The position numbers were made by a program, and so were the translations under genes. Below the pieces are notes generated by a model, which made no database searches, was not told where the DNA came from, and saw only the letters and a list, made by a program, of their open reading frames with translations. A stretch of DNA of 64,000 nt from Ligustrum vulgare (Eukaryota; Streptophyta; Magnoliopsida; Lamiales; Oleaceae). Numbering within the stretch: the stretch's first letter is position 1; each line of letters begins with the position of its first letter. This document shows, piece after piece, positions 10,301 through 62,703 of this stretch. Location: contig OY743182.1 in assembly GCA_963555705.1 (NCBI GenBank), positions 50,162,592 to 50,226,591 on the forward strand. Direction: 5' to 3'.

Positions 10301-11404
10301 CGTCAAATGATTTTGACATATTAGTATGGTGGAAATTAAATATAGCCAAATATCCTATTCTTGGTCGCATTGCAAGAGATATTTTGGCCATCCCAGTTTC
10401 TACAGTTGCATCTGAATCTGCCTTTAGCACTAGTGGCAGATTTGTAAGTCCACACAAAAATAGGCTTCATCCCAAGACTTTGGAAGCGCTGATGTGCGCT
10501 CAAGATTGGTTATGGTCTGAAATTCACGGTATGAAAAGTATAATTATTTATATTTTGTATTTTGTTGTTCATATTATTTATTTTATTGTTAATTTATTTA
10601 TTTTTTGGATAGAAAATTCAACAATGATGTCATATTCTGGATGTTGTACAAAATTGAGTGATGAGGATATTGATGATGAGGTAACTTTATTTTTCTTTAA
10701 ATGAATAGTCTGAATATAACGATAAATGTATAATGTAAAATTTGATATTTATTATAGGAACCTTCTTGGTCCCTCACATCTGAGACAATTGATGTTCAAG
10801 ACAGCTAAAGATTTGTGAAGAATAAAGATTGATTGTCTTTTCTTATTAGATCATTGTCGTTGTGTATTTGATGGAGATTTAGTTTTATGCTTTACATTAC
10901 ATTGTGCATTTATCATTTGTGCTTCTTCTTTTCAAATGATGTATTTGTCTATGTATGATCAGGAATTTGGACGTTGTTTGAGATGATGTGTAATTTATGT
11001 TTGTGCTTTATGCATGTTTAGGAAGTTGGACGGTGTGCTTGTCATCATGTCATCATTGTCATGTAGTATTTTAGAACATTTTTGTCTTGTGATTCAGGTA
11101 CTTGTTTTGATGGTAGAATAAAATTAATAATAGCATGAAATTTAATGTTCTTAATAAAAAATATAGAGGAACTATCAAGCAAATGTTTCCAATATTTCAC
11201 AATTACTTACACACATTGTTGGAAAAAAAAAATTCCAAGTCACAAACGGGGAGGGTGAGGGACCCGACCAGACCCGTGAAAAACCCGAACCCGCCCCGCC
11301 CTGAATGTGGCGGGGCGCTGGGCGGGTATGGGGCGACAAACTGTTTAACGGGTCGGGATGCGGAGCGGTCGACCCGCCCCGAACCCGACCCGTTGCCATC
11401 CCTA
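7312..11404 (+). mobile_element. hAT1: hAT transposon, 4.1 kb
   Basis: The left end begins TAGAGATGGAAAAAAAACCC and the reverse complement of the right end begins TAGGGATGGCAACGGGTCGG. Both are followed by GC-rich subterminal repeats of the type ACCCGC/GGGTCGGG (7330-7455 and 11250-11395). The interior carries a BED-finger hAT transposase gene in the same orientation. The flanking 8-mers (TTTGGTGG and TTGATTAG) do not match, so the target duplication has decayed or the ends are slightly off. The same TAGRGATGG-type terminus recurs at 35204-35853 and 58206. Confidence 0.85.
8405..10808 (+). pseudogene. hAT1 transposase, broken
   Basis: hAT transposases cut and paste DNA through an RNase-H-like core. 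From ATG 8405 there is a Ser/Asn-rich leader, a BED zinc finger at about residues 58-118 (ICNYCKK ... HLRNHLNRC), the RNase-H-like core (SITTDMWTS, VDNCTTND, CCAHILNLIV, RWNSTYLM) and the C-terminal hAT dimerisation region (ARDILAIPVSTVASESAFS ... LEALMCAQDW). Three introns fit: 9161-9261, 10529-10612 and 10681-10757; splicing each keeps the protein pattern. Lesions are a one-base frameshift in the A7 tract at about 8788-8794, an in-frame TAG at 9731-9733, and a one-base loss near 10019-10021. It is probably inactive, although all domains are present. Confidence 0.9.
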
Positions 11405-13499: not shown

Positions 13500-13910
13500 A
13501 ATTGTGAGATGGAAATAGTAGACAGGCACAGAAGCACCCGTCTGTGGATCCATCTCAGCGGTTGTCTGGCCGCCGCTGATTAAATCAGCTTTCGATTTAT
13601 GCACTGTCGTTTGAGGCTGGACCAAGTTTGATGCAGCCTATTACGGACAGTGCATTCATGACAAGATCACGTAAAACAATCAAGCTCAAACCTAGTTTTA
13701 CTTCGTAATGACTCGAAACAATCAAATACTGATTAAATATAAGCAAAAAACTACTAGAAGCAATGCATTTTCTGGCAATGTGCATATGAATTTCGGAGGC
13801 GGGTTAAGACAAGAGAGACGTGTGAAGCCTTAGATCTAAACCCTAGAATGTGTTGAAATTGGTGTGACCGACTGGTATTATATAAGGCATTTGGAGTGGG
13901 CTAATGGGCC
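13500..13910 (-). promoter_or_regulatory. possible promoter plus hairpin-rich island
   Basis: Read on the minus strand, a TGGGCC/GGCCCA site-II-like box (13905-13910) precedes a TATA-like CCTTATATAAT (13877-13887), then a telo-box-like CTAGGGTTT (around 13838-13846). This order is known from promoters of plant translation-related and snoRNA genes. Downstream (13525-13640) are three short hairpins: AGGCTG/CAGCCT (13614-13639), CAGCGG/CCGCTG (13556-13577) and CACAG/CTGTG (around 13527-13545). A 62-codon minus frame (13597-13785) lacks a known domain. Whether an RNA gene or a lost protein gene is meant is unknown. Confidence 0.35.
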
Positions 13911-15334: not shown

Positions 15335-17413
15335 ATGGAGTTTAATAGCGATGAAGTTAACCAATTCAGGAGTAATTCTAGTACTTCCTCTCATATCGAT
15401 GTTTCCGAAAATGCTCCCATTGACTTAGATAATATCCAAGAGGAGGAAGTTGTTGAAATCAAACGAGTTAAAAAATAGTCATCGGATTGCTGGCAACATA
15501 TGACAAGAAAAAAAGTTGGTGTTGAAAATGGAGTTGATATATGGAAAGCGTGCTGCAATTACTGTGGTAAGGAAATGAGCTGGAAGCCCGGGTCAAGCAC
15601 TTCACATTTGAATCGGCACATAGCAAGGATGTGCAAAGCGAAACCGGTTGGTGACCCAACACAGTCCCAGCTTGTTTTTGGTGGTTCAGGACCTTCTGGT
15701 ACTACTCTTTCAACCTTTGTGTATTCGCAAGAAAGATTTCGCGAAGGTATGGCTGCATATGTGGCGGCCGCTGAGATGCTCCTTTCCTTAATTGACTTTG
15801 TTCACTTCACCCGACTTGTGCAGAATTATCTTCAACCCAGGTATACTCCTTACTATAGAAATACACTTCGTGCAGACACCGTAAAATTATATAACAAAAG
15901 GAAAGAAACTATCATTAAAGCCTTAAAAACATATGAGACTGTTATTTCATTTACATCTGATTTATGGACTGGTGGTAACAAAAAAAGTTATATTGCTGCC
16001 ACAGCTCATTACATTGACAATCTTTGGATTTTACACAAAAAAATTATTGCATTTAGATTAGTAGAATATCTTCATAATGCCGCTAACATACATTTAGTTT
16101 TAAAAGGGATTATACAAGAATTCAGTATGCAAGATATGATTCGTAGTTTTACTTTTGATAATGCTAGCGTTAATAAGGTTGTTATTGATAAATTTGTTTC
16201 TGATTTTAACCCTACATTTGATAGTTTATTTTTTCATCAACGTTGTGTTTGTCACATTATCAACTTAATTGTTAAAAGTGGTTTAAAACATATTGAAAAA
16301 TCCTTAGATAAAATTAGACAAGCAATAAATTTCATAAATGTATCACCATCAAGAAAACAAGCATTTAATAGTTTGTGTGCGGAGTATAGTTTAGAAGAAC
16401 ATTCATTTGATACGGATGTATCACATAGATGGAACTCTACATACCTTATGTTATACTCATGTGAAAATTATGATAAAATTATTTCAATGTATTATAATGG
16501 TAGACATACGTATGGATCTGACAATAATTTAGAAGAGTGGGAATGGAGAATTGCATTCTGTGTAAAAAGATTTTTAAAAGCCTTTTATGATGCCACAAAT
16601 GCATGCAGTGGTGTTTATTACCCAACATCTTCACTTGTTTTACAGCACTTTTTTCATATTGCACAAACATTCAATCAATATAGAAATTTGCCAATTTTTA
16701 ATGATGTAGTCAGCTCCATGGAGTTAAAATTTTGCAAATATTGGGAAGAATTACCTTCTTTATTTGTTTTAGCATCGGTGATGGATCCTCGATTAAATTT
16801 AATGGGCACTAAGGCTATTATAAAGGGAATTTCACAAAATTTAAATATAGAATTATCACATGTTAATGTGGAATCTTTATTATGTGAAATTTACAATTAT
16901 TATACTGCAAAAAAAGATCAATGTAGTTCTAGTTCCCAAACTAATGTTTCCCAAAGTACTCCAATGCATTCTAATTCTTTATGGGACTTTATTAACACAA
17001 ATGCAAGTGCTCCCTCAATTAGTTCCAGTGGAAACACATCTAGATCGATAGGTGGTACAAACGTTGAAATTTCATCTAAATTAGCTAGGTACATATGTGT
17101 GGATGTTCGCAGTGTTTTAACACCATAAGAATTAGAGATTTTTGATGTTTTAACTTGGTGGGGGTGTAATGAAAGGCAATATCCAGTTGTAGCAAAAATT
17201 GCACGTGATTTACTAACACCTCCGGTGTCCACCGTGGCATCGGAGGCTGCATTTAGTTTAAGTGGTAGGATTTTGTCAGACGAATGATCAAAACTAAAGG
17301 AAGACATATTAGAAGCTCTTGTATGCTTGAAGGATTGGGAATGTGCAGATTTACGACTTCAAGATAAAGTTGATAGCATCATGGCCGAGGACTTGGAGCA
17401 ATATTTAAGATAG
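15335..17413 (+). pseudogene. hAT2 transposase, one frame with three stops
   Basis: A RICESLEEPER-like hAT transposase of 692 codons in a single unspliced frame. The start ATG at 15335 gives an acidic Ser/Asn-rich leader. A BED zinc finger follows (CCNYCGKEMSW ... HLNRHIARMC), then the RNase-H-like core (TSDLWTG, FDNASVN, RCVCHIINLIV, HRWNSTYLM), the DUF4413-like region (YWEELPSLFVLASVMDPR) and the dimerisation domain (RDLLTPPVSTVASEAAFS ... LEALVCLKDW). The frame is never shifted but is cut by TAG 15476-15478, TAA 17126-17128 and TGA 17285-17287. The longest uninterrupted part is 15500-17128. Three stops without an indel suggest fairly recent decay by base substitution. Confidence 0.92.
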
Positions 17414-20893: not shown

Positions 20894-20981
20894 TCACGCA
20901 TGCGAGAGTGATTTTTCTTAACTCTTATTGGTCTATAATATTAATAAGTTTTACTACTGCACCAGAAATCTTGAATGATTA

Positions 20982-23900
20982 TATAGCGACCCAGAATTTT
21001 TATGCAATAAATAATTATTTTAATATTTAGAAAATTGAGTCGCTATTGTTTTGAAATTAATGCCGCGACGGATTCGTCTAGCCAAGTCAAGAAATATCGA
21101 ATTTGTTCGATTTTAAATTAAAATCCGAATTTCTAAAATTATGTTATTTTAATTATTTATTCAAAGTATTATTTTCAAAATCATTTTGAATTCCAAATTT
21201 ATTAAAATATCTCAATTTTCCTTATTCAAATTATTTCAAGTCCAAATACGTAATTCAATTTTATCTCAAAATTTATTTATTCTCAAATTATTTTCAGTCC
21301 AAAGTATATCTGTTTTAAATACATTTCTTAATCAAAATTAGTCTAATTTTCAATGGATTACTTCCCACGTTTTCTCCTCCTTCCTTTTCTTTGTCCACCA
21401 AAAACAACCATCATTATGGTTCAAGAACATAATGATGATATATACATGTTCTATTATTTTTCACTCTTTCCACTTCATTACACCATCACCAAAGTATCTT
21501 CAACATGGGCACACACCATCATTATCATCATAATCATCACTCGGCCAAGAGCAAATACCCAGCATCATCTCACCAACTACACCTACCACCATTCCAATTC
21601 ATCATTATAACATCCCTTTCATCACAAATCACATTCAAGTAATAATTCAGTCTCCATTCCCACCTTTCACTACCATCTCACGCAGCCATTCCATTATCAT
21701 CAATCCACACAATTTCAAGAAAACAAACTCAATTTCCAATCTGTAAATCAAACCAACACCGTCCATCATCACCAACCCCATTTGCAGCAACAGTCTCCAC
21801 CACCCCAGTCACCAGTGCTCAATCAAACAAACCAATCCTCAATCAGTCACCACCGGTCAGCCACAATACCACCACTGCCGGAACCACGGTTATCATCACC
21901 AAAACAGCCACTCAACCAAACCAACAATCAAACCAAGTTCACTGCCTATCCAAGAAACCACACTGCCCAAACCATTCAATTCTACCACCGCAACCAACAT
22001 CCCAAACCTCTGCAATCATCAAATGAACCACAGCCAAATCAACATCAAAACCTCCATAACCGGCCAGCTTCCTCCCAGTTTTCCTCCATTTCAGCTTCAT
22101 CCAATTCAATGCATAACTGGCTACCATAGGTTAAACCACCACCGGAATTAGTTCCATCACCACCAATTTGCAGATCACAAATTCAATTCTCCATTTTCAA
22201 ACACCCAACATCATCATCATCTCCATCATCACTTTCCCCGCACCCAACCTCAGTCGAGAACCCAAAACACCATCACCATCATACAACCATAAAACAAACC
22301 CAAAACTCAGATTAAGTCAAGCCCAAGACTTACCTCAATCACCGCCGTAAGAACGCAGCCCTAAGTTCGAAATTTGAGTTTCGATTTCACTTTGATTCTG
22401 CGACAGTCTCGCACAAATCAGCCCCCAAAAACCCAGCCTTTTGTACACCGTCACTTGCTACTAATCCCGCCGGTGTTGCGCCGGCGAGTCACCGGCTGAA
22501 GGTCGGATTTTGAATTGGTTTCGCCTCCTCCGCCCCGTTTCTTCTCTGGTCGTGCGAGTGTGAGTGAGTGAGAGACAGTAAAGTGAGAGAGAGAAATGAG
22601 AATCTGAAATATTTAATAACTTTCAAAATTTGCGCGTCAGTCCCTGAAGTTTTTAAAGGTTTTCAAATCAGTCCTCAATTTTTTAAGTTATCCATTTCAG
22701 CCCCCAAAGTTTTAAATGAGTTTTAATCAGCCCTTTCATTTTCAAAATCTATTATTTCAGTCACTGTTGATTTACTTTTAAGCCCAAGTTTCAAAAGTAT
22801 TCATTTTAAATCCCTCAACTTTCAAAATATTCATTTTAGTTCCTCAACTATCAAAAGTATTCATTTTAGTCCCTCAACTTTCAAAACATCAATTTTAGTC
22901 CTCAAATTATAATTTATCATTTTGAACTATATATTCGATAGACTAAAGTGACTTATTGGCTAAGACGAAGCGTACGGAGAATTTAAAGAAATTGAAGTCA
23001 TTCCCGCTCAACTTTGCACTCGTCGGATTTGAGGTAGACTCGCACTTATTAATTGATTTAAATTATGATTTCATATAAATGTCATGTGACTTGTGAAAGT
23101 CAATTTTCAAGAAAATTAAGTATGTTTTATGAAAGGTAAATATACCTTATGTTTTTATGAAAAGTAAGTATACCCTATGTTTTTACGATAATGTTTTATA
23201 TGTTTTGGATCATTGCTATGCACATAAGAATTCTTACCACGAAGTTCGGTAAAATTCTTGTGTCTCCATAAGTTTATGAGGATTTACCACCTAAGTTCGG
23301 TAAAATTCCTGTCTTTCCATATGTTTATGAGGATTTACCACCTAAGTTCGGTAAAATTCCTGTCTCATATGTTTATGAGGATTTCGATCATATCTTATGT
23401 TATGATGGAAATGATCCCTATGAATTTCAAGAATTATGTTTTGGTATACTTACTGTTATTATGATTTTACTACATAAGAATTCTTGCCACCTAAGTTCGG
23501 TAAAATTCTTATATTTATGAGGATTTCGATCTTATCCTATGTTATGATGAAAACTTACTGTTATTATGATTTTACTGCATAAAGAATTCTTGCCACCTAA
23601 GTTCGGTAAAGTTCTTGTGTCTCCTTATGTTTATGAGGATTTCAATCCTATCTTATGTTATGCTTTCAAAAGAAATTATGCTTGGCATAATTAAAATGTT
23701 TTTATAAGTATATGGTTTTCAAAGAGCTGTTTTCAAAGAGCTATTTTCAAAGATCCTATGATTTGCAAAATATGTCCCGTGCTGTAATGCACAATATGAG
23801 TTTTATCAAGAGCAGTTTTATAAAGAAGCTCTATCAATGCCCGTTTTATAAAGAGTCGGGATTTATGTGTTTAATCATCTTATAAATTAAATTAATTTGC

Positions 23901-24299
23901 GATGAGTCTACTGAGTATTTCCCCCATGAAATACTCACCCTACTTTTTAACAGTTTTGCAGATTTTGGAGACGGTGGCGAGCGATGAATGATGGTGGCAA
24001 TAATCGTTAAACGGTTGAAAGTTTGACGTTAATGATTTCCGTATTTTTCCAAACAATCGAATAATTTAGAGAAGTTCATTTATTTGAGAAATTATGACAT
24101 TGTCAATTTCTTTACAAAATTAATGGTTCGATTTACTATTTCAAATGGTTTCATAAATGTTTCAATTTTATCGGCCATTACAGTTTATTTAATGTTGCCA
24201 AAAATGAATTTCAATTATTTCTTCCGCAAAAATATTATTCGAAAAATTTAGACAGAAAATGACGTAGTGAATCGGGTATACGGAACTCGGGGCGCTACA
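20982..24299 (+). repeat. 5' LTR of copy 1
   Basis: A 3318-bp LTR from TATAGCGACCC to GGGGCGCTACA. A C/A-rich stretch (21350-22350) makes long but meaningless open frames. GAGA-rich sequence lies at 22560-22600. Tandem words CATTTTAGTCCCTCAACTTT are at about 22788-22906. From 23237 to 23620 there are five copies of a unit containing CCTAAGTTCGGTAAAATTC. The frames here are repeated exactly in the 3' LTR and I do not call them genes. Confidence 0.93.
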
Positions 24300-24302
24300 A
24301 GT

Positions 24303-24313
24303 TGGTATCAGAG
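24303..24313 (+). other. primer binding site, copy 1
   Basis: TGGTATCAGAG begins three bases after the 5' LTR. It matches the common plant PBS complementary to the 3' end of initiator tRNA-Met. Confidence 0.85.
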
Positions 24314-25239
24314 ATAGTCTGCGTTTCTGTAGACTGGTAAAATTTTCAAAAAGAATTTTAAGAAATATTTTCCATTATAAGATTTTTATTGATGAAGATT
24401 GCCACTGCCATCATTCGTTCCACCAACTTCGAGGTAAAGAAGTTTATGATGTTTAAAGTTATTTCAGTATTTCGAATACTCATTTTATTGATTTATGAGA
24501 AAGAATGAAGAGTATTTCGGATACTTATGATTTATGAGAAATAAGAATGTATTTCTTCGAAAATAATGATGTTGTTATGCTTTGTCATAACTTATATGCT
24601 TTAATGTATGATTATGAGAAAATTTTTAAGAAAGAAAACGAGTGTTGAGCATAATGGGAATAATATGATTTAAGAATGATTTTTAAATAATTTTTGTCCT
24701 CGAGTTAGAAATGATGAACCCTAGATGGACTTTGCATAATTGATTTTAGACATGGCATATATTTATAAGTATGAGTAATCTTTTGAGCCAATTAAGGTAT
24801 GGAAGGAAATGATATTGTGATATTGAAAAAAATATGATTTGAAATTGTTATGTTGAGGAATTATGAATGGAATTATGAGATATTTTTGATGATATTGAAG
24901 TGTTGGAATCGTTTTCAATATTTTAGATCGTTGTGATCAAATGTGGAGTTATTTGTTATTGTGAGTTATGAAGTATGCTTATGTTTTGGGATAAGTCCAA
25001 ATTACAAGGGAGACTCTGTTCAGAATTTTATCAATTGAAATTAAGAGCATGATATGATAAGCATCTACTAAAGGAATTAAGGTTAGACATGCAAGTACAT
25101 TTATATCACAAACGAGATTTGGTTGATGATAGCAGAGATTTTATTATTTTCTCATAAGGAGAACACACAAGAGTCACACTGGAAAGGAAATACATGAAAC
25201 ACATGAAAGCATAAGAGAAAAACATGGAAAGATCCTCAA
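24314..25239 (+). other. non-coding 5' interior of copy 1
   Basis: AT-rich, with no gag frame. The block around 24700-24790 matches the reverse complement of 63650-63740 in copy 2, which shows that the two elements share this interior. Copy 1 has about 50 bp near 25055-25105 that copy 2 lacks. Confidence 0.7.
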
Positions 25240-25455
25240 AATGAGAGATGTGTTTCCGGAGTAGCCGTATCCTACCACCTCTGATCTTTTGAGGAAATAA
25301 AGAAACCTTCAAAGAGGTGTGTTTCGAGAGTAAGAATACTCCGTAATCTACCACCTGGAACCTTTGAGGTACACACAAGATTTAAACATTAAGGAAATCC
25401 AAGTAAATGGAGGGGTGTCTCGAGAGTGAGAATACTCCGTACTCTACCCCCACCT
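25240..25455 (-). repeat. three hairpin-forming repeats 3' of LOG, copy 1
   Basis: On the minus strand, three imperfect copies of GGTGGTAGATTACGGAGTAT...CACACCTC lie at about 25409-25455, 25314-25356 and 25240-25279. Each begins GGTGG and ends CACC/ATCTC. Units 1 and 2 contain GAGTA-TTCT-TACTC, so each can fold into a two-part stem-loop. The same three units lie at the same place after LOG in copy 2. The function is unknown. Confidence 0.75.
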
Positions 25456-25465
25456 ATTCTAAGAT

Positions 25466-26119
25466 TCACAGAGTTAAGTTTACATTAACCGGACTCCATT
25501 TTCGCTTGATTCCCCTTCCTTGCGACCAATCTATCTTAACCCCTGCTGGATCTTGTATTGAGATATATGACTGCAGCTTATCCAGTAGTTCATCAATAGT
25601 AGGAGCAGAATTAAGAAGCCTTCTGGAAAATGGAGAGATGAATCCCTGTTCCACAGCATAATCAAGAAAAGTTAACAAACCATCAAAGAAATTGTTAACA
25701 TTCAGAAGTCCAATAGGCTTAGTATGGAGATCTAGTTGAGCCCACGAGGTAATGTTAAAGATTTCTTCTAAGGTACCAAAACCTCCGGGCAGGGCTATAA
25801 AGGCATCAGAACCATATAGCATACAAGTTATGCGTTCATGGATGGATAAGGTTTGAACTTCATGCCCTCGTGTTTTGCCTGCAACATCTACCAAAGGGAC
25901 ATGTATGACACCGATTACTTTTGATTTCTCTGCAAGAGCAGATTGGGAAACACAACCCATTAGACCACTGCTACCACCCCCATATACAAGAGTGATACCT
26001 TTTTCCCCCAGTTTCTTTCCAAGATCTACAGCCGCTTCTAGATAACCGAAGCCTTTCCCCACTTTTGATCCACAAAATACACAAATAGTTTTGATCTGTC
26101 GAAGTTTTGGTGCTTCCAT
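25466..26119 (-). CDS. LOG-like: LOG-type cytokinin riboside 5'-monophosphate phosphoribohydrolase
   Basis: An intact 217-aa frame, intronless. LOG enzymes cleave cytokinin nucleotides to active bases in one step, in the cytosol and nucleus. Family marks are ICVFCGS (12-18), YGGGSSGLMG (46-55), H94-E-R96, and PGGFGTLEE (111-119), which holds the catalytic Glu; Arg96 corresponds to the conserved catalytic Arg. The Lys that usually follows this Arg is Ile97, and the C-terminus (about 195-217, basic, GIKRKWSP) is not typical. No signal peptide. Ordinary plant LOG genes have several introns, so this looks like a processed copy. It lies antisense inside an LTR element, 302 bp downstream of the Cys-rich gene on the same strand. 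A TATA-like TTTAAATAG lies about 80 bp upstream. Function is inferred by family; activity is untested. Confidence 0.93.
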   Translation of the reverse strand: MEAPKLRQIKTICVFCGSKVGKGFGYLEAAVDLGKKLGEKGITLVYGGGSSGLMGCVSQSALAEKSKVIGVIHVPLVDVAGKTRGHEVQTLSIHERITCMLYGSDAFIALPGGFGTLEEIFNITSWAQLDLHTKPIGLLNVNNFFDGLLTFLDYAVEQGFISPFSRRLLNSAPTIDELLDKLQSYISIQDPAGVKIDWSQGRGIKRKWSPVNVNLTL

Positions 26120-26421
26120 CTTTGATAGTAAAGAAGGGAAAACTGACGAAGAAGATGTGATTTTTGGGATGCCTGAACTATGAAATATGTTTGGCTATTT
26201 AAAGCCGGAAAAAAATTTACTGTTTTTGATTGATTCTGAAAAAGTAAAGATTTACTTTTGACAAAATCAGCCCACTTTTGAAAATTTTATCGTATCGAGG
26301 CTGTCACCTTTCGGCGATTAAATATTTTATTTCCAGCTTTATCAAACCTCGAGAAAGGAAAAATATTTTTTATTTCCAAAACGCGTTAAAGAAAGCAGCA
26401 AAATATTTTAAAAGATTTACC
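26120..26421 (-). promoter_or_regulatory. CRP-LOG spacer with TATA-like motif and GAAA hairpin, copy 1
   Basis: On the minus strand, the spacer has CTTTAAATAGCC about 80 bp before LOG, conserved in copy 2. It also has a small hairpin CGCC-GAAA-GGTG (26304-26317). The Cys-rich gene's stop is followed at once by GGTAAAT, a splice-donor-like word. A promoter for LOG, or a spliced two-gene transcript, are both possible. Confidence 0.5.
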
Positions 26422-26973
26422 TTATATCATTGCTGAACTGCCAGAAGCCTCATTTTGTAAAACAGACTGGCAAACAGGATCTTTCGATATTATATTTTGG
26501 AGACTATAACGATTTTTGTCCTCGTTAAACTGAGCGTATAAGGAGAGAAGTTCACGTTGTACATAACCACTTGGGTGCGTCTCAAGAGTCAGTCGAATAT
26601 CATCCAAAGACTCCTTACTCAGTCCACCCTTTATGAATTCGATTTTATCATCCCGATTAGTAGAAGAATATCCTACTGATTTGCAACGTGTATTACAGTT
26701 CCAACGAGCACATTTGTAGCAACCACCCAGTCTTTTTGCTCTTCGTTTCTTTGCAAACGTGCTTTTGCCTAAACCAGGCATGTGCTTTGGAAATGTTGAT
26801 GGTAATTCACCAGATAGTCGAACATTTGCTTCTATCAACCAGCGAACATCTTCTGGAATATCATGAGCCATTAGCAACCTCAATCTTTCGAGCCTTATTC
26901 TATAGATCTTTCTCAGATCATTCATAGGAAGACTGGAATAATACTTGCGAATGTTAGAAAGGATGATATCCAT
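26422..26973 (-). CDS. cysteine-rich nucleic-acid-binding-like protein (virus CRP type)
   Basis: An intact 183-aa frame; the ATG at 26973 is chosen because copy 2 starts at the same codon. An N-terminal helical, basic half (MDIIL ... RWLIEA) leads to FPKHMPGLGKSTFAKKRRAK (61-80), a strongly basic, NLS-like block. A cluster Cys85-x2-Cys88-x4-Cys93-x3-Cys97 follows directly, and then a hydrophilic C-terminal half. A basic 'GxGKSxxAxxRRA' block directly before a Cys knuckle is the layout of the small cysteine-rich proteins of carla-, viti- and allexiviruses, which bind nucleic acid and in some viruses act as silencing suppressors or transcription regulators. The C-terminal extension of about 80 residues is longer than I expect for those proteins. 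It is antisense in an LTR element, upstream of LOG, with TTTTAAATAG about 40 bp before the start. The viral kinship rests on pattern recognition only. Confidence 0.75.
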   Translation of the reverse strand: MDIILSNIRKYYSSLPMNDLRKIYRIRLERLRLLMAHDIPEDVRWLIEANVRLSGELPSTFPKHMPGLGKSTFAKKRRAKRLGGCYKCARWNCNTRCKSVGYSSTNRDDKIEFIKGGLSKESLDDIRLTLETHPSGYVQRELLSLYAQFNEDKNRYSLQNIISKDPVCQSVLQNEASGSSAMI

Positions 26974-27719
26974 TGTTTGATGATTCAACCTCTTCCCAGC
27001 ATGAACTATTTAAAAGCGCAAGGATATGAATGAATCCGCGTGATTTGTGTTACAGTAAGAAAGGATGGAATAAAATAATGGATAAGAGGAGACAAGAATT
27101 AATGCGCCGTTCACTTTCTTGATAAAAGAAAGATTTGATGATGGGATTTGAGATTTGGAATATTTTCTTGGATTATGGGTACTGATATTTTATTATAATA
27201 ATGATAATCATGGTATAGTGTGATGATACGTGGAAAGTGAATTGAGGACCGTATCGAATTAGAGTTAATACGTATATACAAGTGAAAGAAATACTTTGCA
27301 GGAAATGTGATGACATTTAAGTAAAGAATTTTAGTTATTTGGAAGATATTTGTTTACTGAATTTTGGGTTACAAATATTGGAAAGATAAGTTAATGATAT
27401 TATGTTGATATGTTATTGGGTATATTACGTAGAGAGAATATTCAGGTAATTCTTTGATTATTTTGGGAATATTCGATGATAAGAAGAAAGGAAAAATTAT
27501 TATGATATGATATGTCAGTAAAGATTTGTTGAAATTTTAGAGATATATACAAATATTTGAGGTCACATGATACGATGATAAGTGACATGTTACATGAGTA
27601 ATACAAGATATGATGAAATATCACATACGATTGGGAATTTTCATTTTGATTCAGAAGAATTTATGAGTAGACACATATGTCTATAGAAAAGTCCATGTTC
27701 TTAAGAAACAATGTGATGC
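26974..27719 (+). other. non-coding 3' interior of copy 1
   Basis: AT-rich, with no gene. It is collinear with the reverse of 60400-61100 in copy 2. The last 70 bp before the Cys-rich gene contain its TATA-like motif. Confidence 0.65.
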
Positions 27720-27872
27720 ATTTAGTCAAAGTCCAGTGGGTTAAATATGGTTGGGTTAAATATGGTAGCGATGATGCTACATAAGAGAAAGAAGAGATTC
27801 TGATTAAGTATTCAGAAATCATAAGATTAAGTAAGTTTAATTTCGAGGACGAAATTATTTTAAGGGGGTAAG
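27720..27872 (+). pseudogene. C-terminal pol (chromodomain) remnant, copy 1
   Basis: In the element's sense frame this reads VKVQWVKYGWVKYGSDDAT, a stop, then EKEEEILIKYSEII and a terminal FEDEIILRG. This is the end of integrase/chromodomain of Tekay/Del-like chromoviruses. A 15-bp unit TGGGTTAAATATGGT is tandemly duplicated, and the stop replaces the usual Trp of the ATW motif. Copy 2 has the same duplication. The intact equivalent, with ETTW, is at 40967-41090. This identifies the parent lineage. Confidence 0.75.
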
Positions 27873-27874
27873 AT
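27857..27874 (+). other. polypurine tract region, copy 1
   Basis: TTTTAAGGGGGTAAGAT lies directly before the 3' LTR, the expected place for plus-strand priming. Confidence 0.7.
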
Positions 27875-30800
27875 TATAGCGACCCAGAATTTTTATGCAA
27901 TAAATAATTATTTTAATATTTAGAAAATTGAGTCGCTATTGTTTTGAAATTAATGCCGCGACGGATTCGTCTAGCCAAGTCAAGAAATATCGAATTTGTT
28001 CGATTTTAAATTAAAATCCGAATTTCTAAAATTATGTTATTTTAATTATTTATTCAAAGTATTATTTTCAAAATCATTTTGAATTCCAAATTTATTAAAA
28101 TATCTCAATTTTCCTTATTCAAATTATTTCAAGTCCAAATACGTAATTCAATTTTATCTCAAAATTTATTTATTCTCAAATTATTTTCAGTCCAAAGTAT
28201 ATCTGTTTTAAATACATTTCTTAATCAAAATTAGTCTAATTTTCAATGGATTACTTCCCACGTTTTCTCCTCCTTCCTTTTCTTTGTCCACCAAAAACAA
28301 CCATCATTATGGTTCAAGAACATAATGATGATATATACATGTTCTATTATTTTTCACTCTTTCCACTTCATTACACCATCACCAAAGTATCTTCAACATG
28401 GGCACACACCATCATTATCATCATAATCATCACTCGGCCAAGAGCAAATACCCAGCATCATCTCACCAACTACACCTACCACCATTCCAATTCATCATTA
28501 TAACATCCCTTTCATCACAAATCACATTCAAGTAATAATTCAGTCTCCATTCCCACCTTTCACTACCATCTCACGCAGCCATTCCATTATCATCAATCCA
28601 CACAATTTCAAGAAAACAAACTCAATTTCCAATCTGTAAATCAAACCAACACCGTCCATCATCACCAACCCCATTTGCAGCAACAGTCTCCACCACCCCA
28701 GTCACCAGTGCTCAATCAAACAAACCAATCCTCAATCAGTCACCACCGGTCAGCCACAATACCACCACTGCCGGAACCACGGTTATCATCACCAAAACAG
28801 CCACTCAACCAAACCAACAATCAAACCAAGTTCACTGCCTATCCAAGAAACCACACTGCCCAAACCATTCAATTCTACCACCGCAACCAACATCCCAAAC
28901 CTCTGCAATCATCAAATGAACCACAGCCAAATCAACATCAAAACCTCCATAACCGGCCAGCTTCCTCCCAGTTTTCCTCCATTTCAGCTTCATCCAATTC
29001 AATGCATAACTGGCTACCATAGGTTAAACCACCACCGGAATTAGTTCCATCACCACCAATTTGCAGATCACAAATTCAATTCTCCATTTTCAAACACCCA
29101 ACATCATCATCATCTCCATCATCACTTTCCCCGCACCCAACCTCAGTCGAGAACCCAAAACACCATCACCATCATACAACCATAAAACAAACCCAAAACT
29201 CAGATTAAGTCAAGCCCAAGACTTACCTCAATCACCGCCGTAAGAACGCAGCCCTAAGTTCGAAATTTGAGTTTCGATTTCACTTTGATTCTGCGACAGT
29301 CTCGCACAAATCAGCCCCCAAAAACCCAGCCTTTTGTACACCGTCACTTGCTACTAATCCCGCCGGTGTTGCGCCGGCGAGTCACCGGCTGAAGGTCGGA
29401 TTTTGAATTGGTTTCGCCTCCTCCGCCCCGTTTCTTCTCTGGTCGTGCGAGTGTGAGTGAGTGAGAGACAGTAAAGTGAGAGAGAGAAATGAGAATCTGA
29501 AATATTTAATAACTTTCAAAATTTGCGCGTCAGTCCCTGAAGTTTTTAAAGGTTTTCAAATCAGTCCTCAATTTTTTAAGTTATCCATTTCAGCCCCCAA
29601 AGTTTTAAATGAGTTTTAATCAGCCCTTTCATTTTCAAAATCTATTATTTCAGTCACTGTTGATTTACTTTTAAGCCCAAGTTTCAAAAGTATTCATTTT
29701 AAATCCCTCAACTTTCAAAATATTCATTTTAGTTCCTCAACTATCAAAAGTATTCATTTTAGTCCCTCAACTTTCAAAACATCAATTTTAGTCCTCAAAT
29801 TATAATTTATCATTTTGAACTATATATTCGATAGACTAAAGTGACTTATTGGCTAAGACGAAGCGTACGGAGAATTTAAAGAAATTGAAGTCATTCCCGC
29901 TCAACTTTGCACTCGTCGGATTTGAGGTAGACTCGCACTTATTAATTGATTTAAATTATGATTTCATATAAATGTCATGTGACTTGTGAAAGTCAATTTT
30001 CAAGAAAATTAAGTATGTTTTATGAAAGGTAAATATACCTTATGTTTTTATGAAAAGTAAGTATACCCTATGTTTTTACGATAATGTTTTATATGTTTTG
30101 GATCATTGCTATGCACATAAGAATTCTTACCACGAAGTTCGGTAAAATTCTTGTGTCTCCATAAGTTTATGAGGATTTACCACCTAAGTTCGGTAAAATT
30201 CCTGTCTTTCCATATGTTTATGAGGATTTACCACCTAAGTTCGGTAAAATTCATGTCTCATATGTTTATGAGGATTTCGATCCTATCTTATGTTATGATG
30301 GAAATGATCCCTATGAATTTCAAGAATTATGTTTTGGTATACTTACTGTTATTATGATTTTACTACATAAGAATTCTTGCCACCTAAGTTCGGTAAAATT
30401 CTTATATTTATGAGGATTTCGATCTTATCCTATGTTATGATGAAAACTTACTGTTATTATGATTTTACTGCATAAAGAATTCTTGCCACCTAAGTTCGGT
30501 AAAGTTCTTGTGTCTCCTTATGTTTATGAGGATTTCAATCCTATCTTATGTTATGCTTTCAAAAGAAATTATGCTTGGCATAATTAAAATGTTTTTATAA
30601 GTATATGGTTTTCAAAGAGCTGTTTTCAAAGAGCTATTTTCAAAGATCCTATGATTTGCAAAATATGTCCCGTGCTGTAATGCACAATATGAGTTTTATC
30701 AAGAGCAGTTTTATAAAGAAGCTCTATCAATGCCCGTTTTATAAAGAGCCGGGATTTATGTGTTTAATCATCTTATAAATTAAATTAATTTGCGATGAGT

Positions 30801-31192
30801 CTACTGAGTATTTCCCCCATGAAATACTCACCCTACTTTTTAACAGTTTTGCAGATTTTGGAGACGGTGGCGAGCGATGAATGATGGTGGCAATAATCGT
30901 TAAACGGTTGAAAGTTTGACGTTAATGATTTCCGTATTTTTCCAAACAATCGAATAATTTAGAGAAGTTCATTTATTTGAGAAATTATGACATTGTCAAT
31001 TTCTTTACAAAATTAATGGTTCGATTTACTATTTCAAATGGTTTCATAAATGTTTCAATTTTATCGGCCATTACAGTTTATTTAATGTTGCCAAAAATGA
31101 ATTTCAATTATTTCTTCCGCAAAAATATTATTCGAAAAATTTAGACAGAAAATGACGTAGTGAATCGGGTATACGGAACTCGGGGCGCTACA
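27875..31192 (+). repeat. 3' LTR of copy 1
   Basis: 3318 bp, the same length as the 5' LTR. It differs by eye at three bases only (C/A, A/C and T/C relative to the 5' LTR), which indicates a young insertion. It ends GGGGCGCTACA before target copy GATTA. Confidence 0.93.
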
Positions 31193-31197
31193 GATTA

Positions 31198-36913: not shown

Positions 36914-39557
36914 ATGCATAGAACTCAATCAACTAATTTTGAACTCTTTGATTTTGGCCCAGAAATCGAGAAAACTTTTCGACAACTGATAAATGTGTTT
37001 TATACACTTATCTGTATGTCTAAATTAGAAAAATTTATTATCGTTTTAGAATATATGCTCCTTAATTTGTGTTTATTTGTTTACTTTTCAGAAAATATCC
37101 CAATCGAAGAAGAATAAAGAAATCAATGGGAATTTATGACCCGAGAGTTAAAGACGTAACCACGCGATCGCTAGGGTATTAGCCAAGCGATCACGCGCTT
37201 ATTCGGATAGGCCGACTGTGGGCTTTTTCTCGCGATTTTCAACAGAATTCTCTCCTTCTTGACCTAGGTTTCTCCAAAACCTATATATACAACACATGAG
37301 GCAGGAAAATCAGATCTTTGCCTCTCCATAGAGCAAGCCACAACAGAGATTTCAATTCAAATTCTTGGAGATTCAAGCATCGCAGAGGGGCATGAATTGA
37401 AGATACTAGAAGAATTGATAATTGGTGCAATCTTTCCATTCTTCTTTGTTATTTTCAATGAACGTTTTATTTTCTTGTTTTTGTTCTTTAATCAAAATGT
37501 GTAACTAAATTCTATGTTGGGATGAACGATGTAGCCTAGTTAATTATTTTAATGCCATATTCCTTGTTTTAACGCTTTAATGCATGTGTTGATTTATTAT
37601 TGCGTTTAATGCGTGAATGAACTGGCCATTCTTTCATGATTTCATGTGTTATTTTCATAATCCAAGAGGTGAGTTAATAACATAGATCTAGGTAATAAAT
37701 CCGGTAATTGAATGAGAGATAGAGATATACTCTTGTTATTATTGCGATCGTGTGTGAATTCTTGTGTGTAATGCATCTAGATAAGGAATATTCGGACCCG
37801 CTATAGAGATACAAGGTTGACTTATTTAGGTAGGATTGATTTAAACTCTAGAGAGGAATCTCAATTTAAATCAGTGAATTCGATCGAACACATATTTAGA
37901 AAATAGAACTATGAATTGGAATTGATTTAATTGGCTAGGTGAACTCGTGAATCCCAATTATTTTACAATCATTTTTACAACAAAAGCAATCTCGCTAATT
38001 TAATTCTTTAGTTTAATTTATTGGTTTTAATTTACAATCACAAATTCTCTTTTTCTGTTCAAATAAAGTTTAGAACTGACATATTTCGGTACTTAGTAAG
38101 TAGTCATCGTGGGAACGATAATCCGTACACTTGCGGGAGTATTTCGCTTTGCGAGATATCAGTGAACAACAGCAAAGAAGAGCAGGATGACAAATGGCAG
38201 CTAATAACATCAACAACAGAACTTTTAAACAACTGACTACTCCCAATGTTGCTCAGCAACCACTGTGTACTACTTTCCCAACAGTGGAAGAGGGAAAAAA
38301 TTTTGAGCTTAAATCTGGGCTCATCCACTTGTTATCGAATTTTCGAGAAAATCCTGGTTAAGATCCGTATAGGCTCCTAAAGGAGTTTCATGTGGTTTGC
38401 GATAGTATGAGACCCACGAGCATTACCGAGGAGCAAATAAAATGAGAGCTTTCCCATTCTCATTAAAGGATGCCGCCACAAACTGGATTTATTGTCTACC
38501 ATCTGGAACAGTCACTACTTGGAATGACATGAAGAGGCTTTTCTTGGAGAAATACTTTCCCGCATCTAGAGCTGGTACCATCAGAAAGGAGATATATGGG
38601 GTGCGCCAAAAAAATGGCAAATCATTATATGAGTATTGGGAGCGCTTCAAGAAGCTCATCTCAAGCTGCCCCCATCATCAAATCAGTGAGCAACTATTGA
38701 TGCAGTATTTTTATGAAGGACTAGCACCGATGGATAGAAGCATGATAGATGCCGCAAGTGGAGGTGCACTGATGGACAAGACACCGGAACAAGCATTGGC
38801 TTTAATCTCCAACATGGCTGAGAACACTCAGAAATTCAACTCAAGTAGGGATTCGTAAGTCCTCCGTGTGAACGAGGTAAGTAGTTCCAATATCGAAGGT
38901 CAATTATATGAACTAACAAATCTCGTTAAGCAACTTGCTGTAGGGAACTCGAATCAGGTCAAAGCATGCGGAATCTGTTCAAATTTTGGACATCCAACGG
39001 ATACCTGTCCGGTGTTGCAAGAGGAAAACAATGAACAGGTAAATGCTGCAGGAGATTTTCCTTTCCAAAGACAGCAGTACAACCCGTACTCCAACACATA
39101 CAACCCCGGGTGGAGAGATCACCCTAACTTGAGTTACGGAAATAACAAACCCCCAGGTTTTACTCCAAACAAGCCACAAGGACATTTTCAGCAGCAAGGG
39201 ACTTTTCAACCACAGGGGCAATATCAACAAAAGCCTCAAAATTCAGGTATGTCTCTCGAAGATATCGTAAAAATGCTGGCAACTAACACGATGCAATTTC
39301 AACAGGATGCCAAATCAAGCATTCAAAACCTGGAGAATCAAATCAGCTAAATGGCCACGGCAATAAACAGGTTGGAGGTACAATCTGGAGGGAAGTTACC
39401 ATCGCAGCCCGAGGTGAATCCCAAAAACGTGAGTGCCATAATTCTCTGGGGTGGAAAGGAAATTGAGGGCTGGCAACGGGAACTGGTTACACCTGAAAGG
39501 GAGGAAGATGAAGAAGAAGGAGTCAGAAAGAAAAACGACACTTCACAAAACTCTTAG
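36914..39557 (+). pseudogene. gag: Athila gag, interrupted
   Basis: Gag forms the particle and binds the RNA. An ATG at 36914 gives the usual Athila start (MHRTQSTNFELFDF). A solo LTR then splits codons 24/25; removing it and one ACAAC copy restores the frame. The Retrotrans_gag domain follows (AFPFSLKDAATNW ... LFLEKYFPASR, 38442-38760) and then one zinc knuckle CGICSNFGHPTDTC (C-x2-C-x4-H-x4-C, 38969-39010), Gln-rich linkers and a Lys/Glu-rich tail. Lesions include TGA near 38190, TAA near 38360, a frameshift at about 38440 and stops at 38856, 39348 and 39555. Not functional. Confidence 0.88.
36987..38165 (+). repeat. solo LTR inside Athila gag
   Basis: The insert begins TGATAAATGTG and is flanked by ACAAC (36982-36986 and 38166-38170). 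Excising it restores the gag frame, which fixes the borders. A TATA-like CTATATATAC lies at 37281. Late text CACTTGCGGGAGTATTTCGC is typical of Athila/Tat LTR ends. The insert ends ATATCAGTGA, that is, four bases after the expected CA. Confidence 0.8.
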
Positions 39558-40900
39558 GTAAAAACTGATTCCCATTTAAATGTTAAACTAACTCCTCCAC
39601 CTTTCCCTAGCAGGTTAGCAAGGGTAACCAAGGAGGGCAAGGAAAAAGAGATTTTGGAGATGTTTAAGAAGTTCGAAGTCAATATTCCGCTATTGGACGC
39701 CATCAAGCAGGTCCCCCTAGTATGCAGAATTTTTAAAGGATTTATGCACTAACAAACGGAAATTGGTGGAGAACGAGAAGGTAAGAATGGGGGAAAATGT
39801 TTCAGCACTATTTCAAAGGAAATTGCCTCCTAAGTGTAAGGATCCAGGTATGTTTACTGTGCCATGTCAAATTGGTAACACTAAGGTAGATCATGCACTG
39901 ATAGACTTAAGAGCATCTATAAACGTAATGCCTAGATCTACTTAGAGTGCATTAAACCTCACCAAAATGACTAAAACAAGTGTTATCATTCAACTAACCA
40001 ACCATTCCAATGCGTATCCAGATGGGGTAGTTGAGGACATGTTAGTGCAAGTAGGAGGGTTGGTGTTTTCGGTAGACTTTTACGTGTTAGATATGAATGA
40101 TGATCACTCCCCTAACTCTACCCCTATATTGTTAGGTAGACCATTTTTGTGGACATCCCAAACCATAATTGATGTGAGGAAGGGGGTGTTGACCATGGAA
40201 TTCAATGGGGAGGTAGTGCAATTTAATATTTACGATGCAATGAAGCATCCAAATGGTATGTGTGCTACCTACTCTATTAGTGTCATTACTCCTGCAGCGC
40301 AGAAAGTCTTTGAGTTAAATTGCAGCGATGAGCTAGAAATAGCTATTTCGAAATCATTAAGGCAAGATGATGACAACGAATTGGGAATGAGCAAGGAACT
40401 GCAAGATGGAATCACTGCACTTAATTCCCTGGGACCCGCGCCACGTAGGTATGCTGTAAAAACAATTCAGTTAACAGACTATCCTAACAAATTGCTACCC
40501 TCTATTTTGCAGGCCCCAGTAGTGGAAATGAAATCTCTGCCCGCCCATTTGAAATATGTATTTCTTGGTGATGGAGAAACGCTTCCCGTAATTGTTTCAT
40601 CCAACATCACCAAGTTGGAAGAAGATAAACTAGTTCGGGTTCTTCGGGAGCACAAGGAGGGGATTGGTTGGACAATCCCGGATATCAAAGGAACCAGCCC
40701 GTCAATCTGTATGCATCGTATATTGCTTGAGGAAGGAGCTCAACCATCAAGACAGGCTCAGCGAAGACTAAATCCGGCAATGATGGAAGTGGTGAAGAAA
40801 TAAATTTTAAAGCTGTTGGAGCAGGGATGATTTACCCAATTTCAGACAGCAAATGGATCAGTCCAGTACAAGTGGTCTCCAAGAAATCTGGAGTAAATCG
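39558..40900 (+). pseudogene. pol: Athila protease and start of RT
   Basis: The frame continues from gag through the PPPFPSRLA linker, shifts at about 39718 and runs through protease (ALIDLRASINVMP, then ILLGRPFLWTSQTIIDV) into the N-terminal RT region (CMHRILLEEGAQPSRQAQRR ... PAMMEVVKK). In the protease active-site motif, the Gly of DLGAS is Arg (DLRAS). There are stops at 39943 and 40801 and a frameshift near 40830. RT breaks off about 40895 at KKSGV, before its catalytic motifs. The rest is replaced by chromovirus sequence. Confidence 0.85.
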
Positions 40901-41096
40901 TTTAAATCTTTAAGTCCAAATTTCGACTTTAAACTTGTCCCAGTTTCATTCTTTATTTTAAAGTTCAATGGGGGTAGACATGGTAGTGATGAAACTACCT
41001 GGTTTAAGAAAGAAGAAATTTTGATCAAGTATCCAATTATTTTAAATCAAGAAAATTTTAAATTTCGAGGACGAAATTATTTTAAGGTGGTAGGGT
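40900..41096 (+). pseudogene. chromovirus pol C-terminus, inserted fragment
   Basis: This reads GRHGSDETTWFKKEEILIKYP and ends FRGRNYFKVVGL, the end of a Tekay/Del-like integrase chromodomain, followed by the LTR. It is the same region as the remnant at 27720-27872, here without the 15-bp duplication and with Trp kept. It joins Athila RT directly on its left, without an LTR. Confidence 0.75.
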
Positions 41097-58326: not shown

Positions 58327-58840
58327 TGTGACGACCCGAATTCTCGACCATTCGAGTGCCACAAAAAGTGACTCATATCATATTATCGAGACTTAAATAG
58401 TAATGTAAAATTATTCAAAAGAATAATTAGAATCCCATAATTTTATTTGTGAATAAAAATAGAACATAATTTTCTTACATAAAGTTCAACATAATTATCT
58501 CATCAATCTTAACCACTTTTGCCACTTCCATGTTGACCGCCTCGAACCTTCAATTATCTGAAAATGGTAAATATCGTGGAGTGAGATTTATAAAATCCCA
58601 GTAAGTATACCAAGCATAAATTTTATTTTGAAAGCATATGGATCATTTTCATCATAACATAGGATAGGATCGAAATACTCATAAACATAGGGAGACACAA
58701 GAATTTTACCGAACTTAAATGGCAAGAATTCTTATGTGTAGCGCTACTAAACTCCAGTCCCCTTAGCATAATCATAAACATATCATATGGAACCCATAAC
58801 AATCTTGTGAGATTGATTTCATAGCAATGATCCAAACATT

Positions 58841-59214
58841 TTCATAAAAACATAAGATATACTTACTTGTCATAAAAACATACTTACTTTTCATAAAAAC
58901 ATAAGATATACTTACTTGTCATAAAAACATACTTACTTTTCATAAAAACATAAGGTGTATTTACATTTCATAAAAACATACTTACTTTTCATAAAAACAT
59001 AAGATATACTTACTTGTCATAAAAACATACTTACTTTTCATAAAAACATAAGGTGTATTTACCTTTCATAAAAACATACTTACTTTTCATAAAAATATAA
59101 GATATACTTACTTGTCATAAAAACATACTTACTTTTCATAAAAACATAAGGTGTATTTACCTTTCATAAAAACATACTTACTTTTCATAAAAACATAAGA
59201 TATACTTACCTTTT
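58841..59214 (-). repeat. ~50-bp tandem repeats in copy 2 LTR
   Basis: Units of TCATAAAAACATAAGATATA followed by 'cttacttgtcataaaaacatacttactt' repeat about seven times, in two alternating subtypes (AAGATATACTTACTT and AAGGTGTATTTACCT). Copy 1 LTRs have only about two such units (23110-23190). Confidence 0.85.
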
Positions 59215-62693: not shown

Positions 62694-62703
62694 ATCTTAG
62701 AAT

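Follow-up and report, generated by a model that had tools for sequence, protein, structure and literature searches.

A conserved pair of antisense genes, LOG-like and virus-type cysteine-rich, in an abundant non-autonomous LTR element of Ligustrum vulgare

The element at 20982-31192 of the window, the 64,000-nt stretch of Ligustrum vulgare DNA analysed here (GCA_963555705.1, OY743182.1; all coordinates are positions in it), is a young copy belonging to a very abundant family of non-autonomous LTR elements. It carries two antisense genes, coding for a LONELY GUY (LOG)-like protein and for a cysteine-rich protein of the viral NABP type. We tentatively predict that the two serve non-autonomous gypsy-like elements as an accessory module, probably in counter-defence, and give this reading slightly less than an even chance.

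Structure of the element

The element comprises the following features:

20977-20981, no strand: left TSD, GATTA, with an identical right copy at 31193-31197
20982-24299, plus strand: 5' LTR, 3318 bp, with 3 mismatches to the 3' LTR
24300-24313, plus strand: PBS AGTTGGTATCAGAG, directly after LTR1, opening the internal region
25466-26119, minus strand: LOG-like gene, antisense, 217 aa, one open frame, PF03641 match
26196-26203, minus strand: TATA-like motif TTTAAATA upstream of the LOG gene, called by eye, kept in copy 2
26422-26973, minus strand: cysteine-rich gene of viral NABP type, antisense, 183 aa, PF05515 and PF01623 matches
27008-27015, minus strand: TATA-like motif TTTTAAAT upstream of the NABP gene, called by eye, kept in copy 2
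27860-27874, plus strand: polypurine-tract (PPT) region TTAAGGGGGTAAGAT, end of the internal region
27875-31192, plus strand: 3' LTR, 3318 bp, pairing with the 5' LTR
31193-31197, no strand: right TSD, GATTA, matching the left copy

The LTRs have the termini TATAGCGACC...GGGGCGCTACA and enclose an internal region at 24300-27874. A 3.3-kb direct repeat that is 99.9% alike and bordered by a TSD is far beyond chance. The AGTTGGTATCAGAG following LTR1 is presumably the complement of a stretch of initiator tRNA-Met; TTGGTATCAGAGC is present after LTR1 in L047, L049, and L051, and is shifted by the repeat border in L045. The PPT-like AAGGGGGTAAGA stops one base short of LTR2. Judging from its PBS and PPT, the element is probably gypsy-like. 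Paired LTRs, a TSD, a PBS, and a PPT, the characteristics of LTR retrotransposons, were found both here and in copy 2 (see below). The complete element and the two intact antisense genes given in a preliminary description of this DNA were therefore confirmed.

The statement in that description that gag and pol are missing was also borne out: no gag/pol-like frame was recognized by eye among the 30 open frames of at least 40 aa in the internal region. The four longest frames in 20 sampled 10-kb regions were LOG, NABP, paired frames that presumably belong to the LTRs, and, in L040, a gag ORF located outside the stretch that matches the internal region of the element at 20982-31192. In L001, an NABP gene is in sense orientation downstream of an integrase ORF. 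An autonomous partner was not found: of the 2279 LTR-PBS sites, two listed ones without LOG, L064 and L065, contained no gag/pol over the 4 kb read and look like deletion derivatives. An Rfam scan of the element returned zero ribozyme matches, so there is no sign of a retrozyme. A scan for bacterial sigma-70 promoters remained at chance level; this model is not applicable to plants.

Copies in the genome

The second place in the window that carries both genes proved to be a complete relative in opposite orientation (58327-66814), with the TSD AACCT:

58327-64000 in the window and on to 66814 beyond it, minus strand: copy 2, orientation opposite to the element at 20982-31192
58327-60220: 3' LTR of copy 2; its LTRs are 1894 bp long, with 2 mismatches
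61151-61702, plus strand: NABP gene of copy 2
62040-62693, plus strand: LOG gene of copy 2

A 29-mer from the cysteine-rich gene was found at 4020 places in the 1.38-Gb genome and a 30-mer from the LOG gene at 5488 places; the reversed controls gave 0. Because thousands of further places match pieces of both genes, an assembly artefact limited to two places, against which the preliminary description had cautioned, is excluded. Among the matches listed, 83 of the 92 NABP sites had a LOG site at a distance of about 0.9 kb and in the layout of the window copies; at none was LOG on the wrong side of NABP. Both genes were present in all 20 copies sampled from this genome (LOG is partial in one). 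LTR-like direct repeats, 99.5-100% alike, surround the pair in 18 of these 20 copies; the sampled copies are young. Given these flanking repeats, an ordinary host locus is not supported in this genome.

Selection, age, and distribution of the gene pair

Between the two window copies, dN/dS values of the two genes are 0.20 and 0.25 (Fisher p 0.0026 and 0.00014), and comparison with L062 gave 0.07 for LOG (59 synonymous and 18 nonsynonymous changes, dS 0.53) and 0.13 for NABP (dS 0.75), the copies having been selected for protein similarity, a choice that depresses dN. With dN/dS at 0.07-0.25, purifying selection acts on both genes. The earlier notion of a selfish element with two conserved genes other than gag and pol is thereby supported.

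Relatives of both genes occur in rosids and asterids and keep the same residues; the lists of relatives hold several separate entries each for Orobanche, Populus, Reevesia, and Xanthoceras. Element-type LOGs are annotated as genes in some plants (LOGL10 in Populus and Diospyros), and LOG and NABP are fused in four Orobanche gene models. In other species, LOG and NABP contigs of equal size yielded 4 matches of at least 1300 bp versus 0.2 expected, with up to 3 matches at single other offsets and with one match, of 1558 bp, in conflict between two trees. Equal sizes of 1018, 905, and 873 bp were dropped as too short for both genes. Equal contig sizes are weak evidence of linkage in other species; the pair is probably linked there too. 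Since the genes are fused in Orobanche and probably linked elsewhere, and since element-type LOGs form one clade in the tree, separate from the host LOGs sampled, the pair is old rather than recently captured by a single element.

The LOG-like protein

The LOG-like protein matches PF03641 at 113.6 bits, and its nearest PDB structure is AtLOG3 (2a33; about 50% identity). The predicted structure is confident (pLDDT 85.8) and retains the LOG fold. As in plant LONELY GUY enzymes such as AtLOG3, the catalytic Arg and Glu (residue assignments from PMC5379747) and the PGGxGTxxE loop are present. The element protein differs from AtLOG3 by its single open frame, the replacement of Lys97/Glu122, and the gain of a basic patch and an LxLxL-type tail. 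Arg96, Thr116, and Glu119 are jointly kept in 109 of 118 element-type rows.

The Lys of the adenine/prenyl site (Lys97), a neighbour of the catalytic Arg, and the Glu with which this Lys pairs are replaced by I97 and N122 in the window protein. Both are absent in 113 of the 118 element-type rows (the pair is present in 4), while the pair occurs in 120 of 120 host LOG rows, a set composed only of those most similar to AtLOG3. In the bacterial LOG CgLOGII, Lys156Ala abolished all activity, and the Lys156-Glu181 contact helps dimerisation (PMC5379747). With this pair lost, the cytokinin activation that the preliminary description ascribed to the protein appears doubtful. Conservation among host rows, together with identity in three outgroup rows, marks 51 positions; at six of them (97, 98, 120, 122, 130, and 158), most element-type rows carry a different residue. 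These six changes could represent drift that left activity intact.

A basic patch with an LxLxL (EAR-like) C-terminal tail was detected in 92 of 122 element-type LOGs versus 0 of 120 host LOGs. Tails of this kind recruit TOPLESS co-repressors. The tail is predicted to be disordered. In the window protein it reads VNVNLTL, a relaxed form that fails strict LxLxL, and position 73 is His, whereas the host rows all have Pro there, as do 107 of the 118 element-type rows. Owing to the relaxed tail and His73, the LOG of the window copy itself may be impaired.

The LOG alignment matched 24 loci in IMG/VR viral contigs at 24-29% identity. A canonical LOG query against the plant's own genome gave 150 scored matches that cover most of its length at 48-52% identity; a stop interrupts 6 of them, and no host LOG exon was among these 150.

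The cysteine-rich protein

The cysteine-rich protein scored above the cut-offs of PF05515 (31.1 bits, cut-off 23) and PF01623 (27.1 bits, cut-off 20.9), modest scores (31 and 27 bits) that suggest an NABP likeness. At E 0.01, the two families were matched by 46 and 42 of 46 aligned members, respectively, in support of the virus-like character assigned to this gene earlier. The protein contains C85, C88, C93, C97, and a KKRRAK patch. Its predicted structure is of low confidence (pLDDT 64.8); among the best 14 of 31 fold matches obtained with this poor model, nine were viral NABPs/silencing suppressors or nucleic-acid/RNA-binding proteins (best E 0.048), no single match being significant by itself. 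Sequence matches in PDB, two poxvirus chains at E 0.23, were not credible and are taken as chance. No relative was found in IMG/VR with either the single NABP sequence or alignment A1.

With the cysteine-rich/NABP proteins of flexiviruses, the element protein shares both Pfam families above cut-off and a basic patch followed by a Cys finger. It is unlike them in its length of 183 aa, its location in an LTR retroelement, and its well-conserved C-terminal half. Silencing suppression is reported for viral cysteine-rich relatives, and a carlavirus protein of this kind is described as a transcription factor that causes hyperplasia (PMC12172455).

Comparison with known elements

LOG (YgdH) domains have been reported in LTR-retrotransposon consensus sequences of Citrus and Populus (PMC9289625, citing Steinbauerova 2011). 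These too have the LOG domain within plant gypsy-type LTR elements but, unlike the present element, were found via their own reverse transcriptase. The passages of PMC9289625 on LOG-domain elements make no mention of an NABP gene, of the pairing, the tail, or the pocket change, and our literature searches found no report of these features in elements. In the gene-capture review PMC13317346, no passage on cytokinin or LOG was found. The preliminary claim that this combination is undescribed is thus superseded for the LOG domain and stands, as far as we found, for the pair with NABP.

Retand/Grande/RIRE2-type elements likewise possess antisense accessory genes, that of Grande with its own promoter, and some of the products are nuclear or predicted to bind DNA. 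They differ in being mostly gag-pol elements, the antisense ORFs of which encode TRP28, SMC, and other domains (PMC11963269, PMC7264820). An RNA-directed accessory enzyme is likewise carried by gypsy elements of orchids, in the form of an AlkB m6A demethylase. This enzyme, which is proposed to be relevant to host surveillance, occurs in flexiviruses as well. The orchid elements differ from the present one: they are giant gag-pol elements with one additional ORF, reported from Phalaenopsis only (PMC9289625).

Possible function of the gene pair

An old two-gene antisense cassette, with a TATA-like site before each gene, occupies the internal region instead of gag/pol. In the reading that we favour, gag-pol of an autonomous relative would move the element in trans. 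The cassette would serve as an accessory module for counter-defence, by which the element or its host cell stays permissive. The NABP-type protein may act like flexivirus cysteine-rich proteins, by binding nucleic acids, weakening RNA silencing, and altering transcription. For the LOG-derived protein, a nuclear role is proposed. Its LOG fold and catalytic Arg/Glu are retained, but the pocket has been remodelled on the base/prenyl side, and most relatives have the basic patch and EAR-like tail of the putative TOPLESS-recruiting type at their C-terminus. For these reasons, an altered nucleotide enzyme or a ligand-binding co-repressor adaptor is more likely than an ordinary cytokinin activator. 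A fuller version, which we regard as possible but somewhat unlikely, is a two-protein counter-defence kept across rosids and asterids, with a virus-type suppressor and a TOPLESS-recruiting nuclear LOG acting on a new substrate; the NABP would share its origin with that of flexiviruses, and the viruses might be the borrowers.

A working cytokinin activator, as envisaged in the preliminary description, would through local cytokinin keep cells dividing and meristematic and so favour transposition and germline transmission; NABP would add proliferation or silencing suppression. The retained fold and catalytic residues (109 of 118 rows), strong purifying selection on LOG, and the hyperplasia induced by the carlavirus protein (PMC12172455) agree with this. 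We nevertheless consider it fairly unlikely: 113 of 118 rows have lost Lys97 along with Glu122, the corresponding residues matter for activity and dimerisation of CgLOGII (PMC5379747), and a plain enzyme needs no nuclear or EAR-like tail. Packaging or replication, with NABP as a nucleocapsid-like RNA chaperone and the LOG-like protein as a structural or regulatory partner without an enzymatic role, would fit an element devoid of gag, the resemblance of the Cys4 finger and basic patch to nucleic-acid chaperones, and the sense-oriented NABP gene after the integrase ORF in L001. It is a quite improbable solution, however, as packaging alone hardly accounts for the antisense orientation, the separate TATA-like sites of the genes, and the preserved enzyme pocket, and would not require the catalytic residues.

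In the two remaining explanations, selection acts for the host or the genes have no role for the element. Domestication of some copies as host genes, the rest being noise, would agree with the LOGL10 annotations in Populus and Diospyros but is very unlikely in view of the thousands of matching places, the LTR-like repeats around 18 of 20 sampled copies, and the several separate entries in each of Orobanche, Populus, Reevesia, and Xanthoceras. Capture of genes by LTR elements is common, and the pair might be ordinary host sequence carried along because the copies are young, 18 of 20 having repeats that are 99.5-100% alike. A mere passenger would decay, whereas subfamilies with dS as high as 0.75 still show dN/dS of 0.07-0.25 and rosid and asterid relatives keep the same residues; we therefore hold this explanation to be extremely improbable.

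Implications

Plant transposons are expected to evolve anti-silencing tools. The gene pair suggests that this element brings its own tools against the host, derived from hormone-like and virus-like passenger genes. According to a 2020 review, antisense extra ORFs show no clear described similarity to other database proteins and lack similarity to other transposable elements or viruses (PMC7264820); an antisense ORF that matches a viral family with silencing-suppressor members contrasts with this account. Because an NABP gene is linked here to a putatively neofunctionalised LOG, under strong purifying selection and at thousands of places, ordinary assays can address what antisense ORFs do. A gene link between plant RNA viruses and retroelements is also suggested, and some plant genes annotated as LOG or LOGL10 may be element genes without cytokinin activation.

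Organization of the LTR element and the surrounding DNA

The element designated copy 1 is bounded by two 3318-bp LTRs with 3 mismatches between them and is flanked by the TSD GATTA. The PBS directly follows LTR1, and the PPT ends one base before LTR2. No gag/pol-like ORF was found in copy 1 among ORFs judged by eye. The structure given for this stretch in the preliminary description (an LTR pair with TSD, PBS and PPT, no gag/pol, and two antisense ORFs) was borne out. The main features are as follows.

20982-31192: copy 1
25466-26119, minus strand: LOG (LONELY GUY)-like ORF, 217 aa
26422-26973, minus strand: Cys-rich ORF (viral nucleic-acid-binding protein type, NABP), 183 aa
58327-66814, opposite orientation to copy 1: copy 2, LTRs of 1894 bp with 2 mismatches, TSD AACCT

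Copy 2 possesses a PBS identical to that of copy 1 and an internal region of 4700 bp. The LTRs of the two copies are far more diverged than the two-gene cassette, since the LOG and Cys-rich proteins are 97.2 and 91.8% identical, respectively, while blastn aligns the LTRs only over their initial 160 bases and in repeat stretches. The LTRs start with TATAG in both LTRs of copy 1, and with TGTAG in copy 2 and in two fetched genome regions, L038 and L057. The TATA-like sites of the cassette are kept in both copies. Short GTGTTTCGAGAGTAAGAATACTCCG-like repeats at 25240-25465 directly follow the 3' end of the LOG gene, in DNA that is 97% alike in the two copies, and possibly mark the end of the LOG transcript. 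His/Pro/Gln-rich open frames occur within LTRs (21611-22129, 28504-29022, and 995-1903 of fetched region L048; 302 aa in the latter); the two frames tested had no Pfam match.

Elsewhere in the window, a gypsy remnant (38406-47423) retains pieces of gag (PF03732), an integrase zinc-binding domain (PF17921), and Transposase_32 (PF20167), and is broken at approximately 40.9-43.7 kb by an element-related LTR fragment (TGTAGCGACC ... GGGGCGTTACA). Transposase ORFs of the hAT type are located at 9973-10704 (PF05699) and 15479-17128 (PF14372 with zf-BED). Rfam matches on the minus strand include snoR143 (13500-13655) and a weak snoR71 (38577-38683); the latter falls within the gag ORF region and is perhaps a chance match.

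Copy number and linkage of the two genes

In the L. vulgare assembly (1,384,917,791 bases; 51 contigs), a 29-mer of the Cys-rich gene and a 30-mer of the LOG gene matched 4020 and 5488 places, respectively, with at most 2 mismatches; both patterns reversed matched 0 places. Linkage was assessed for the first 100 places listed per pattern, all exact and all on contig C1. The count took in all 100 LOG sites and the 92 Cys-rich sites located at or below 46.83 Mb; 8 Cys-rich sites farther along were left out, as the listed LOG sites did not extend that far. Among these listed matches, 83 of the 92 Cys-rich sites were accompanied on the expected side by a LOG site, at a distance of 902-994 bp, and none had one on the wrong side; 83 of the 100 LOG sites had a Cys-rich partner. 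The spacing of consecutive listed sites on C1 was 5.9-7.3 kb in 10 of 91 cases, which fits LTR-internal-LTR-internal tandem arrays. Arrays with a period of ~6.5-6.7 kb are exemplified on two other contigs by C15:37133416/37139881/37146346 and C20:11351252/11357970/11364688.

Twenty further copies were fetched from the top of the protein-similarity list. The Cys-rich ORF was open in all 20, with a LOG ORF 261-414 bp away that was full length and open in 19. LTR-like direct repeats (2.6-3.3 kb, 99.5-100% alike, many clipped by the region end) flanked 18 of these 20 copies. Two diverged copies, L062 and L063, also carry the gene pair, the Cys-rich gene being broken in L063. In region L040, a 451-aa gag ORF (959-2314; PF03732, zf-CCHC) adjoins a copy with a replaced 3' internal part, representing either a second element or a recombinant.

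Both domains are fused in four Orobanche gene models (P0012, P0017, P0019, and P0119). Equal-sized contigs (at least 1300 bp) common to both protein lists numbered 4 versus 0.2 expected, with up to 3 at other offsets, a hint of linkage in other species. As judged by eye, the 8723-, 2128-, and 4511-bp contigs group alike in the LOG and Cys-rich trees; the 1558-bp contig does not.

The Cys-rich protein

The Cys-rich protein of the window exceeded the Pfam thresholds for both Viral_NABP and Carla_C4, in support of its initial designation as virus-like. Homology analysis retained 266 of 324 candidate relatives at E 0.01; 120 were listed, with Orobanche, Striga, Populus, Xanthoceras, and Acer among the named sources. 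In an alignment of 46 members (44 of these 120 relatives plus the proteins of copies 1 and 2), Viral_NABP was detected in 46 and Carla_C4 in 42 at E 0.01. A basic patch and C85, C88, C93, and C97 are conserved in the family. The structure model was poor (pLDDT 64.8), and none of the 31 matches from a viral fold search with it reached E 0.001. Nine of the 14 best fold matches, none at E 0.001, were named plant-virus silencing suppressors or nucleic-acid/RNA-binding proteins.

A 67%-identical gene occurs in sense orientation after an integrase ORF in contig L001; the family is, therefore, not confined to the antisense cassette. This plant-like retroelement contig (DAIEQH010000041.1) is filed under a Candidatus Nomurabacteria MAG and probably represents contamination.

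The LOG protein

A LOG fold was predicted for the window protein (pLDDT 85.8), the best PDB match being AtLOG3 (51% identity). In a rapidly built tree of 63 selected rows, a branch with SH-aLRT 95 separated the 37 element-type LOGs from 24 host LOGs; for most rows, 'element-type' denotes similarity to the window LOG (best 120 of 7194 hits) rather than observed LTRs.

According to PMC5379747, Arg155 and Glu178 are the catalytic residues, activity is lost when Arg155, Lys156, Thr175, or Glu178 is replaced by Ala, and Lys156 and Glu181, which contact each other across the dimer, lie in a proposed prenyl site. By alignment, these positions correspond to R96 (Arg155), E119 (Glu178), T116 (Thr175), I97 (Lys156), and N122 (Glu181) of the window LOG. 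Among 118 element-type rows (four of at least 260 aa were dropped), R96, T116, and E119 were all kept in 109; Lys97 and Glu122 occurred together in 4, Lys97 alone in 1, and neither in 113. Both were present in AtLOG8, two bacterial LOGs, and 120 of 120 host rows, the latter being the best 120 of 7999 matches to AtLOG3, with other LOG subgroups hardly covered. On these sequence grounds, the role of cytokinin activator initially ascribed to the LOG gene is held back.

TOPLESS is recruited by LxLxL tails. A strict LxLxL motif within the last 12 residues was found in 92 of 122 element-type LOGs versus 1.4 expected after shuffling, and in 0 of 120 host LOGs; a basic patch precedes it in 88 of the 92. 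The window LOG ends in KRKWSPVNVNLTL, a relaxed form of the motif, and disorder was predicted for residues 201-217. In three Xanthoceras rows the Lys-Glu pair is retained and the tail is absent; the two of these included in the tree branch off first, which suggests that the element LOG arose by stepwise change from a normal LOG.

Selection and possible recombination

Between copies 1 and 2, LOG shows 9 synonymous and 6 nonsynonymous changes, corresponding to a dN/dS of 0.20 (Fisher p 0.0026). The Cys-rich gene shows 17.7 and 17.3 such changes, respectively, and a dN/dS of 0.25 (p 0.00014). Against L062, dN/dS was 0.07 for LOG (59 and 18; dS 0.53) and 0.13 for the Cys-rich gene (53.4 and 38.6; dS 0.75). 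Picking copies by protein similarity biases dN downward; this bias was judged too small for lowering dN/dS from 1 to 0.1.

LOG and ~200 bp downstream are 97% alike in copies 1 and 2, other stretches 80-94%, and dS is 0.06 for LOG and 0.165 for the Cys-rich gene. This unevenness suggests that element subfamilies have recombined. The LOG of copy 1 carries His73 instead of the Pro present in copy 2 and in 107 of 118 element-type rows, and may itself be impaired.

Proposed role and novelty of the cassette

The element's structure, copy number, gene linkage, and selection are established, as are the Pfam assignment of the Cys-rich gene and the altered pocket and tail of LOG. The non-autonomous element would be mobilised in trans, with antisense transcription of both genes presumably starting from the TATA-like sites and the cassette acting in counter-defence. 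A silencing-suppressor role of the Cys-rich protein is proposed by analogy with its flexivirus relatives, which are reported to be suppressors (PMC12172455).

The combination had been presented as undescribed. This does not apply to its LOG part, as LOG domains in plant gypsy elements were reported earlier (PMC9289625). No report of NABP genes in retrotransposons was found among the papers listed by searches of the open full-text literature. Within these sources, the virus-like partner, its pairing with LOG, the LOG tail, and the LOG pocket change appear to be new. The two-gene cassette of plant LTR elements is genuine and old, and it occurs in very large numbers.
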